Positions 177-2,952 of a stretch of DNA of 37,657 nucleotides are shown piece by piece. Source of the DNA: Candidatus Sericytochromatia bacterium (lineage in GTDB: Bacteria; Cyanobacteriota; Sericytochromatia; S15B-MN24; JAQBPE01); NCBI GenBank assembly GCA_035285325.1, contig JAYKJB010000065.1, positions 1 through 37,657 of the forward strand, given 5' to 3'. Positions within the stretch are counted from its first letter, which is position 1, and each line of letters begins with the position of its first letter. The notes beneath the pieces were generated by a model. It had not been told where the DNA came from. It was given only the letters and a program-made list of their open reading frames with translations, and searched no databases. Position numbers and translations under genes: made by a program.

Positions 177-1268
177 ATGGAATCGCTCCGGACGGCGATC
201 GACACCCTGCCGACAGGCCATGGGGTCTACTTCTTTTTCGACGCACGCGACCGCCTGCTTTACATCGGGAAGTCGGTCAACGTGCGTGCCCGGGTCCGAA
301 GTTACTTTCGTGATGACGGAGGGCACACGGCGCGTACGGCCAGACTGAAGCACGAGGTCGTGAGGGTCGAGAGCCAAACGTGCGGTTCTGAGTTGGAGGC
401 CCTTCTGCTCGAGAGCCGTCTGATCAAGGAGCGAATTCCTCTCTATAACATCAGGGGACGCAGCTACCGTCACTTTCCCTTCGTGAAGATCACCCAGGAG
501 GCCTTTCCCCGCGTCCTGCTCACCTTCGAATTGCGGGATGACGGCGCGCGTTACTACGGTCCGTTTGTCGGCGAGATTCGCGTCCAAGAAGCCCTGGATG
601 CCCTGCGTCCCATCTTTACCTGGCGCAGTTGCATGCCATTGGCTCGACAGGTCTGTTTCGAACATACCATCGGTCGTTGCCAGGCCCCCTGTGTGGGACT
701 GGTGGCAGAGTCTGACTATGGAGAGGCGCTGGAAGCTTTGACGGCTTTCCTGTCCGGCGAGGTGACGGGACCGCTTGAAGCCCTGGAACAGGACATGAAC
801 AGGGCTGCGGAGTCCCTGGCCTTCGAACGCGCCGCAGTGCTGCGCGATCGACTTTTCCGTTTGAGAGCCTGGGTCCAGCAACAGCAAGCCATACAGGCCG
901 TGCAGACCCAACTGGACTGTCTGGTGGTGTTGCCAGCATCGACGCCAGATCGAGTCAACTGGCTTCTGGTACGGCGTGGACGCCTGGTTCACAGCGAATG
1001 CGAGATCACGCCTCAGGATCGGGGGCGCGCCTGCAAGCGCATCCGAGCCGCCATGGCCCACCCAACGCCCTCGCTCGCGGTTCGACAGTCAGAGATGGAG
1101 GAGATCAACATTGTATCGGGCTGGCTTCACCGCCACACCGATTCAGAACGTTGCATCCGCCTCTCCGGCGAAACCATGAAGGAGGCCTTGACGCAGGCGT
1201 GGCAGCTTTCATTCGGCGCCGAGAAGCAAGCCAGTCAGCGGTTCCGTTCGGCCGCGATGGCGCGCTGA
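177..1268 (+). CDS. UvrC N-terminal-like GIY-YIG nuclease (Cho-like)
   Basis: A 363-residue protein matching the N-terminal half of excinuclease subunit UvrC, which makes the 3' incision in nucleotide excision repair. The GIY-YIG domain is at residues 15-92: GVYFFF at 16-21, LYIGKS at 28-33, an Arg-rich helix at 37-43 and a probable metal-binding Glu in GSELEALLLES. Four cysteines (C152, C160, C168, C172) match the UvrC spacing that has been linked to an iron-sulfur cluster. A UVR motif, which contacts UvrB, lies at about 198-232. The C-terminal RNase H-like nuclease and the helix-hairpin-helix domain of full UvrC (about 600 residues) are absent, as in E. coli Cho. It could also correspond to the UvrC half of DEDDh exonuclease-UvrC fusions. 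The ATG at 177 has no clear ribosome binding site. The 3' end overlaps the convergent gene by 34 bases. Confidence 0.85.
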   Translation: MESLRTAIDTLPTGHGVYFFFDARDRLLYIGKSVNVRARVRSYFRDDGGHTARTARLKHEVVRVESQTCGSELEALLLESRLIKERIPLYNIRGRSYRHFPFVKITQEAFPRVLLTFELRDDGARYYGPFVGEIRVQEALDALRPIFTWRSCMPLARQVCFEHTIGRCQAPCVGLVAESDYGEALEALTAFLSGEVTGPLEALEQDMNRAAESLAFERAAVLRDRLFRLRAWVQQQQAIQAVQTQLDCLVVLPASTPDRVNWLLVRRGRLVHSECEITPQDRGRACKRIRAAMAHPTPSLAVRQSEMEEINIVSGWLHRHTDSERCIRLSGETMKEALTQAWQLSFGAEKQASQRFRSAAMAR

Positions 1269-1657
1269 AGAGCGAGGGCATCTTCGATCTGGGCGGAGGT
1301 GCAATGTCCGAGTTGCACCAAAGCCTCACCCAACTGGCAGCCCAAGGCCTGCTGCCGGTCCAAAGCCTCCAACAACTGAATGAAGCCAATGTCGCCCTGA
1401 TTCAGCAGCAATTCCCCCAGACGGATGCCGGCCTTGTAGTCCTTCAAGGCTTTCACCAGATTTTCAGCCGAAAGCACGCCACGTTTGACCAGCAACTCGC
1501 CGATTTTCAGGTGTGCCTTGAGGCTCTTCTGCGCCAGCAGGCCCTCTTCGAGCTCCGTGCGGGTAATCATCCCCTGAGAAATCAAGAATTCGCCAAAGAA
1601 TCCAGCATTGATTTCTTCCAAAAAAGATTCCCGCACGTGTTTGGAGGTTTCAAACAT
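1235..1657 (-). CDS. GspE-N/MshEN-like repeat protein
   Basis: A 140-residue soluble protein built from four copies of a helical unit of the form (L)GELLxxxGxIxxxxLxxALxxQ, at about residues 21-43, 52-73, 80-102 and 109-131. This is the pattern of the N-terminal domain of type II secretion and type IV pilus ATPases (GspE-N, MshEN), which in some members binds cyclic di-GMP. No ATPase domain follows, so it is a stand-alone module. The ATG at 1657 shares bases with the TGA of the upstream FHIPEP gene, and AGGAAGG lies upstream, so the two are probably translated together. An adjoining TTG at 1660 is a weaker start. The pairing suggests a joint regulatory or scaffold role; the true function is unknown. 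Confidence 0.7.
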   Translation of the reverse strand: MFETSKHVRESFLEEINAGFFGEFLISQGMITRTELEEGLLAQKSLKAHLKIGELLVKRGVLSAENLVKALKDYKAGIRLGELLLNQGDIGFIQLLEALDRQQALGCQLGEALVQLGHCTSAQIEDALALQRAIAAERNR

Positions 1658-2952
1658 CAACGCGCACCTTCCTCGGTATCAAAGGGCAGCCTGGGTTCCC
1701 GTTCGAGCGAATCCTGGCGAAAGACAGGAGCGTCCAGATGAGTCGACCCGAGCGGACGGGTCGCCGGTGACTGCACGGGGTCCAGGCGCAAAGAGCGTTC
1801 AAGGCTGGCCTGGATCCCAGCGATCCGCTCAGTCGTCCGCGGCAATCCCAAGCCGTGCAGGACCGCCTGGACCAGCTCGTCTGTTGAGAAAAACGGGATG
1901 TGAGAGGAAATTTTCCAGGTCTCGTCCATGCTCAGAGGTTTATCTGCCAGGTAGTTGATGAAATGGTTCATCAGGATTTCGACCATCTGTGGCAACTGTC
2001 GGATGCTGTACCCCTGGCGCAAAAGGCTCTGCAGGACCAGCCGCAGCTCACTCACCGACATGAAGCGCCCCAACAGTTCCTGGAGCGTTTCGCGACCAAT
2101 CTCGACCTCGCGGACGCGCAACACCTGGTCAAGTTCATGATTGGTAAACAACCGATGCGCGTGACGCCGGACCAGCGATGCCAGGTGTTCAGCCAGCAAC
2201 TCTTCGGCCGAACTCACTTCACCAGCCCAGGCATTCGAGGCGGCCTGCGCAATCCAAACCATGGGAATCGGGCGTACAGGGTGCGGTTCTGAGGCCCAAG
2301 CAGGGGGAAGCTCTGGCCCCAGGGCCGCCACGCACCCAGGTACCAGGCGACCTTCAGCCAAGGTTTCCCCCTGGATTCGCAGCGCGTAGATCTCCTGAGG
2401 CATGGCTGGATTTTGCACCACGGTCACAGCGGGAAAGGCAAAGCCCAGTTCGTGCGCCAGTTGGTACCTGGCGCGACCGATCAAATCCTGAATCAGAGAA
2501 TGGGACTCTGCGGCTGACAGTGCCTGGACCAACCCTGGATGCATTTCAAGCGCCAGCGGGGGGGAGACCAAGGATTGCAGCACCATCTCCGGCACCCGGC
2601 CGATAAAAATCTCCGCGGAGGCCTCCCCGGAGGTCACCAGCGACTGCGTGCCCGGAGGAGGGACCAGGGCCTGGTCGCGCGAGGAGCGCAGCCCGCCTAG
2701 CAAACCGGTGATGGCCCTCTTGGCGCCATCGAGTAGCCCGCTGCCGCCCGGCGGTGGAACCAGTTCCGCCGGCCAAAGCCCCACGGCCAATAGCTGTCGG
2801 TGAATCAAACGGAGGCGAGCCGGGTCGTGGCGAGCCACATAGTCGTCCCAATCTTCTTCGAGAAGGAGGCAATACTCCGCGAAGAGGCGCATCGCGTCTT
2901 CGTAGCGGTAGCGACCCACCAGCAGATTGAGCGCTTTCTCCCTGTCGACCAT
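1657..2952 (-). CDS. Soluble FHIPEP (FlhA cytoplasmic) domain protein
   Basis: About 431 residues with no membrane segment. Residues about 132-346 match the cytoplasmic domain of FlhA/SctV, the export gate of flagellar and type III secretion systems: a helix with RARYQLAHELGFAFP, the YALRIQGETLAEGRLVPG strand region, an AEHLASLVRRHAHRLF helix, then SELRLVLQSLLRQGYSIRQL, close to the FlhA helix normally ending in SIRDL. The N-terminal eight-helix membrane part of FlhA is missing. An N-terminal helical stretch (1-65) and a Pro-rich linker come first. The start is uncertain. ATG 2952 has GAAGGA eight bases upstream; ATG 3114 has GAGAGG but would add 54 residues whose codon use looks non-coding. 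No flagellar or secretion genes are nearby. Confidence 0.75.
   Translation of the reverse strand: MVDREKALNLLVGRYRYEDAMRLFAEYCLLLEEDWDDYVARHDPARLRLIHRQLLAVGLWPAELVPPPGGSGLLDGAKRAITGLLGGLRSSRDQALVPPPGTQSLVTSGEASAEIFIGRVPEMVLQSLVSPPLALEMHPGLVQALSAAESHSLIQDLIGRARYQLAHELGFAFPAVTVVQNPAMPQEIYALRIQGETLAEGRLVPGCVAALGPELPPAWASEPHPVRPIPMVWIAQAASNAWAGEVSSAEELLAEHLASLVRRHAHRLFTNHELDQVLRVREVEIGRETLQELLGRFMSVSELRLVLQSLLRQGYSIRQLPQMVEILMNHFINYLADKPLSMDETWKISSHIPFFSTDELVQAVLHGLGLPRTTERIAGIQASLERSLRLDPVQSPATRPLGSTHLDAPVFRQDSLEREPRLPFDTEEGAR

Follow-up and report, generated by a model that had tools for sequence, protein, structure and literature searches.

A soluble FlhA-C paralog encoded next to a standalone MshE-type module in Sericytochromatia: a possible regulator of flagellar export

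The window analyzed here is a 37,657-nucleotide stretch of DNA from a Candidatus Sericytochromatia bacterium. Two adjacent genes on its minus strand raise the question of what the cytoplasmic domain of a flagellar export gate could do as a soluble protein, and what it could do with a standalone cyclic di-GMP (c-di-GMP) type module encoded directly downstream. A first-pass annotation, made from the DNA letters, had described the two as secretion-system modules freed from their machines and locked in one operon, possibly forming a ligand-controlled adaptor. The features of both genes are listed in Table 1.

Table 1 Features of the FlhA-C-like gene and the MshEN gene in the window
Feature	Position	Strand	Basis
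Soluble FlhA-C paralog, 431 aa	1657..2952	(-)	PF00771 match, PDB FlhA-C matches
N-terminal helical module, ~61 aa	2770..2952	(-)	Alignment of its sequence
Linker motif RVPEMVLQSL, residues 119-128, fits FlhA PExVxxL	2569..2598	(-)	Alignment
HPVR, residues 224-227, replaces FlhA DPxF (D456, F459)	2272..2283	(-)	Alignment
E255, replaces FlhA T490	2188..2190	(-)	Alignment
C-terminal extension with IPFFSTDEL, residues ~331-431, at the expected place of D4	1660..1962	(-)	PF00771 match and G001 homolog
Stop/start overlap TGATG between the genes	1655..1659	(-)	Sequence
Standalone MshE-type c-di-GMP module, 140 aa	1235..1657	(-)	NF053729 and fold match
Degenerate first pair of MshEN half-repeats (FFG...Q, KIG...Y)	1436..1600	(-)	NF053729 match, alignment
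53-residue c-di-GMP unit: RLGELLLNQGDIGFIQLLEALDRQ, 5-residue spacer, QLGEALVQLGHCTSAQIEDALALQ	1265..1423	(-)	Motif alignment, 8 orthologs

The upstream gene runs from an ATG at 2952, a start position common to its homolog in the nearest genome (G001), to a TGA at 1659-1657. Its product matched the FHIPEP profile PF00771 with an E-value of 1.6e-25 and 90.2 bits (gathering score 29.1), but only over profile positions 322-534 of 657. The match begins after the FlhA membrane domain and stops before D4, so both are absent, and no membrane helix was found, the maximum 19-residue Kyte-Doolittle mean being 1.1 vs 3.0 for the full-length FlhA of the same genome. The annotation was therefore right that only the cytoplasmic part of FHIPEP is encoded. 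Against TIGR01398, the NCBIfam FlhA/SctV equivalog, the protein scored 78.5 bits, below the cut-off of 772.1. FlhA-C crystal structures were matched by phmmer (3mix, 1.6e-16), and a six-row profile of the protein also matched FlhA cytoplasmic-domain crystal structures. The AlphaFold model is weak (mean pLDDT 46) because its input consisted of two rows only; its best Foldseek matches were all to FlhA-C or SctV-C, which is in line with the sequence result but proves little.

The protein is laid out as an N-terminal helical module, a linker and domains D1-D3, without D4, and the GYXLI motif of FlhA (PMC9431611) is missing. Four helices were modeled in the N-terminal module (pLDDT 70-84). An alignment search of 18 class genomes found this module only on G000:C65, G000:C21, G001:C47, and G001:C407, G000 being the window's genome, and thus confined to two paralog pairs of family f1. 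The FlhA-C-like protein arose by duplication and truncation of FlhA, keeping the linker and D1-D3 of the cytoplasmic domain, and has turned soluble with an N-terminal module of its own.

The downstream gene (ATG at 1657, stop at 1235) shares one base with the stop codon of the first (TGATG, 1659-1655), which bears out the stop/start coupling noted in the annotation. Its product matched NF053729, the MshE-related c-di-GMP motif, in two stretches with an E-value of 1.8e-22 and 78.9 bits (cut-off 38 bits), and its 140 residues gave no match to the GspE/PilB-type ATPase domain PF00437. The PDB folds that best matched its AlphaFold model (two-row input, pLDDT 61) were 5htl, 8pfa, and 8pdk, in which c-di-GMP is bound to V. 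cholerae MshE or T. thermophilus PilF-GSPIIB; the matches spanned 56 columns at ~40% identity, with a probability of 1.0 and a best E-value of 0.028. The repeat module of type II secretion ATPases indeed stands alone here, and the structural check that the annotation had suggested agreed with its assignment of both proteins.

Such MshEN modules, familiar mainly from the ATPases of pili and type II systems, follow the consensus RLGxx..G..LxxxLxxQ, present twice, with 24 residues each and a 5-residue spacer between (PMC5013675). In motif I (residues 79-102), the Arg, Gly, and Gln are kept in 8/8 orthologs; the window protein has an Asp at one hydrophobic position and otherwise fits the consensus. 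In motif II (residues 108-131), the Gly and Gln are kept, while Gln, Ser, Thr, His, or Pro stands in for the first Arg, so the affinity for c-di-GMP may be low. As judged from these motifs, c-di-GMP binding is plausible, not certain. The nucleotide itself is probably present in the cell, as 14 GGDEF domain matches were found in the genome. NF053729 matches number 30 in this 3.8-Mb genome and up to 50 in a classmate.

We then asked how far the pairing is conserved in the class sample of 18 genomes. In the nearest genome (G001, ‘Cyanobacteria bacterium RYN_339’), which is the only other member of the family in this sample and belongs to another genus, the pair is also adjacent, with protein identities of 52% (FlhA-C-like) and 70% (MshEN), a 2-bp gap between the genes and the same GIY-YIG gene adjoining. 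The FlhA-C gene of G001 runs over the ends of two contigs (C47, C19), a split that we read as an assembly break. Differences between the window and G001 at the three codon positions were 0.40/0.28/0.59 for the FlhA-C-like gene and 0.28/0.17/0.55 for the MshEN gene, a signature of purifying selection on both. Given the adjacency in G001, these identities and this selection, the pair is not due to chance.

The arrangement is nevertheless not the locked operon that the annotation had claimed. Six genomes of the order, drawn from three further families (G002, G003, G005, G006, G007, G009), have full-length MshEN orthologs (45-48% identity). No FHIPEP match was detected near them on the same contig in any of the six, and no FHIPEP gene adjoined them in the five readable neighborhoods, the G009 contig being too short for gene calling. 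MshEN is thus present order-wide without such a neighbor, so it has another role there. Window-type FlhA-C proteins number two in the window's genome, two in G001 and one in G003; the last has no MshEN gene directly adjoining, and a large MshEN-containing gene lies 2.5 kb off. Being present in two genomes and absent in other families, the pairing is specific to one family rather than an old, fixed system. A somewhat unlikely alternative, one of the two main rivals of the regulator favored below, is that the genes are neighbors without a common function, MshEN doing its order-wide job and merely lying, in one family, downstream on the transcript of an unrelated FlhA-C-like gene. The orthologs without an FHIPEP neighbor and the G003 relative speak for it; the TGATG overlap speaks against it, as does the 2-bp gap kept in another genus although the FlhA-C proteins are only 52% identical.

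A scan of genome contigs with the FlhA-C-like protein alone as query gave no match, and with a two-row alignment the only match was G001's own record; searches of plasmids and phages yielded no more than partial matches of FlhA type, several without annotation. PADLOC gave no match, and at the pair one weak promoter-like match and zero terminators were found. A short GIY-YIG and UVR protein (363 aa, window 177-1268(+)) is convergent with the pair, its G001 copy being 52% identical; the divergent coiled-coil gene and the glycosyltransferase of the window flanks were not found at the G001 loci. The nearest same-genome paralog of the window protein (C21; L040:3-3089) lies 40 bp upstream of a gene for a PilT-type ATPase that carries a long extension at its N terminus. 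A PilT linkage of this paralog was dropped as a candidate, as the G001 gene upstream of the PilT ortholog does not read as an FlhA-C orphan.

Neither flagellar nor pilus genes were found among the scanned proteins around the pair, so the annotation's remark that no flagellar, type III or pilus genes are near holds for the window. It does not hold genome-wide, as three FlhA genes elsewhere have flagellar neighbors. These are flgD-, flgE-, fliN-, fliO-, fliP-, fliQ-, and fliR-like genes at C54; rod, ring, and hook-basal genes and one flagellin-like gene at C61; and fliM-, fliP-, fliQ-, fliR-, and flhB-like genes at C102, where the cluster ends at the contig edge. It should be noted that FHIPEP alone was identified by profile search, while the flagellar gene names were read from translations. 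The presence of three FlhA genes in separate clusters of one genome (L044, L043, L042) suggests more than one export apparatus. Further FlhA-derived genes, besides the window gene, lie on C19, C21, and C5, the last carrying two, one of them with a degenerate membrane part.

Orphan FHIPEP cytoplasmic domains are not limited to this family. Among 39 relatives they occur in genomes that also hold FlhA, and none was found in the other large genomes of the phylum (families f8, f10-f15). The annotation's view of modules freed from their machines is thus not borne out, in view both of the three flagellar-cluster FlhA genes and of the orphans of other flagellated genomes in this set; it had looked to pairing in genomes without flagella as the sign of a new system, and the pair was found in two genomes, the window's own not being flagella-free. 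In a draw of 292 genomes from the phylum, 153 had FHIPEP, and family f9 had at least two matches in nearly all of its genomes. In the eleven f9 genomes inspected, the two matches were one FlhA and one orphan of ~492 aa. A tree of 45 sequences grouped the five window-type proteins (98/97) and joined the f9 orphans to f9 FlhA (100/99), forcing at least two changes between full-length and orphan forms, with several long branches and unsure deep placements. Soluble FlhA-C paralogs therefore recur in non-photosynthetic Cyanobacteriota, with at least two origins.

These orphans come in several forms. The ~492-aa f9 type (L059-L069), near-universal in its family, has a weak DUF4177-like N-terminus, and in the five loci read it is flanked by uridine-phosphorylase-like and 4-alpha-glucanotransferase-like genes. 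In L057:9315-10556 and L056:9765-11018, an HTH_17 (excisionase-type) DNA-binding domain is fused to FlhA-C; the gene is divergent from a fliP-fliQ-fliR-like cluster in G011 and located elsewhere in G013. A role of this fusion as a flagellar regulator, considered because fliP adjoins in G011, was set aside given the location in G013. A C19-type orphan of ~590 aa (L039:7416-11410, L051:8440-11891) is convergent with a conserved proline/histidine-rich protein, which has LysM-like repeats at its end in the window's genome. A conserved pair (L041:8651-11577, L048:3-2140) consists of a full-length but degenerate FlhA-like protein (578 aa) and an FlhA-C protein (365-367 aa) with a hydrophobic segment at its N terminus, adjoining a large gene that resembles DHH-CBS tRNA nucleotidyltransferase. 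Classmates encode standalone FlhA D4-like proteins of ~106-136 aa (L095:6671-6991, L098:6570-6908, L099:6010-6420, also L096 and L097), the complement of the D4-less window protein; in each of the three loci read, a thiolase gene adjoins. In G225 and G062, the phylum search gave an FHIPEP match of orphan strength and no full-length FlhA match.

What the orphans have lost and kept bears on their possible function. In Salmonella FlhA, chaperone-cargo complexes dock at a dimple made up of D456, F459, and T490, the linker (E351, W354, D356) contacts D1/D3 and the dimple of the neighboring subunit, and linker and chaperones are rivals for the same dimple (PMC8166844). Phe or Tyr occupies residue 459 in 21/22 full-length FlhA proteins, whereas no orphan among 23 has either, except one with a visibly misaligned stretch here; residue 490 is Thr or Ala in 22/22 full-length proteins and 0/23 orphans. 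The window protein has H224, R227, and E255 for D456, F459, and T490. The PExVxxL linker motif, in contrast to the dimple, is present in most of the 23 orphans, the window protein among them. Loss of the dimple disfavors cargo docking, and together with retention of the linker it allows contact with an FlhA ring via the linker.

We tentatively favor a reading in which the FlhA-C mimic and MshEN form a c-di-GMP-tuned regulator, a brake or switch, of the flagellar export gate. With dimple and D4 gone, the FlhA-C-like protein would no longer take export cargo, and with the linker motif kept it would bind to the genuine FlhA-C ring of the cell or assemble together with it, and there it would compete with chaperone-cargo complexes, as linker and chaperones do for the Salmonella dimple, and thereby slow or switch flagellar export. 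The signal would come from the co-translated MshEN protein: c-di-GMP binding would alter its hold on the FlhA-C-like protein, engaging or releasing the brake, and this change would be set at the motile-to-sessile switch. The established identities of both proteins, their overlap or tight spacing in two genera under purifying selection, the conserved key residues of motif I, and the presence in one genome of both target (three FlhA genes in flagellar clusters) and signal (14 GGDEF domains) are consistent with such a regulator. Against it, MshEN is kept across the order without an adjoining FHIPEP gene, the pairing is seen in two genomes only, the replaced Arg of motif II may mean low affinity, the linker motif may be retained for folding rather than ring contact, and the model of the FlhA part is poor. 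The contacts of the FlhA-C-like protein with MshEN and with FlhA, as well as c-di-GMP binding, are what we infer. The more specific version, a c-di-GMP-gated trans-acting regulator whose linker helix caps the FlhA ring and which belongs to a set of export-regulating FlhA-C mimics that evolved repeatedly across the phylum, is rather doubtful.

Alternatively, the FlhA-C fold may have been exapted as an oligomerizing scaffold outside type III export, for example in type IV pili or surface attachment, under c-di-GMP control by MshEN. Loss of dimple and D4, the PilT-type ATPase gene downstream of the C21 paralog and the pilus and type II ATPases from which MshEN is best known would fit, but the PilT neighborhood is absent at G001, the window pair has no pilus gene nearby, and orphans are present in flagellated genomes; we regard this scaffold, the second main rival, as unlikely. 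A docking adaptor, in which the FlhA-C part would bind chaperones or export substrates and MshEN would gate this binding via c-di-GMP, is improbable: true export-gate FlhA-C does bind cargo (PMC9431611, PMC8166844), but here the three dimple residues are replaced and GYXLI and D4 are lost. Of the ligand-controlled adaptor put forward in the annotation, docking thus falls away and ligand control remains conceivable, given the largely intact c-di-GMP motif and the 14 GGDEF domains. A decaying fragment of a former flhA gene, which the gene's nature as a shortened partial copy of a larger one might suggest, is hardly credible for 431 intact codons with a new N-terminal module and an orthologous gene in another genus with the codon-position rates given above.

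If the proposed regulator acts on the FlhA ring, these proteins would be naturally occurring regulators that control type III export in trans, and it would become possible to test directly how c-di-GMP could control flagellar export itself, as opposed to gene expression or the motor. If they do not act on the ring, they show that evolution can put a central part of the export gate to a different use. In either case, FlhA-C has repeatedly become soluble, without its cargo-docking dimple, within a single phylum; in one family, its gene and that of a c-di-GMP-type sensor module are translated together. As the annotation had sensed, the arrangement is unfamiliar: no description of orphan or soluble FlhA, of cyanobacterial FHIPEP or of FlhA with MshEN was found in the open-access literature, so that the set of soluble, dimple-less FlhA-C orphans in this phylum is apparently unreported.

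FlhA-C and MshEN are both known modules, the former, as far as found, only within the membrane export gate; the soluble, dimple-less FlhA-C and its pairing with MshEN are new forms of them. The window protein resembles the FlhA/SctV (FHIPEP) gate in D1-D3 sequence and fold class and in the PExVxxL linker motif, but it is soluble, lacks the membrane part, D4, the dimple and GYXLI, and has gained an N-terminal helical module. Its partner shares with the MshEN/GSPII-B modules of MshE and PilF the 53-residue two-motif unit, the Gly and Gln contacts and the helical hairpin fold; it differs in standing alone, without an ATPase or glycosyltransferase, in the replaced first Arg of motif II and in its degenerate first pair of half-repeats. 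FlhX and similar proteins, which are orphan C-terminal domains of FlhB, offer a precedent for a freed export-gate cytoplasmic domain in a flagellated bacterium, although they derive from FlhB, not FlhA, and have no nucleotide-sensor partner. The other FlhA-C orphans of Cyanobacteriota (the 492-aa proteins of f9, the HTH_17-FlhA-C fusions of f6 and the C19 type) are likewise soluble and have lost the dimple, but most retain D4, they carry other N-terminal modules, no MshEN neighbor was seen for them, and at least those of f9 have, according to the tree, an origin separate from that of the window-type proteins.
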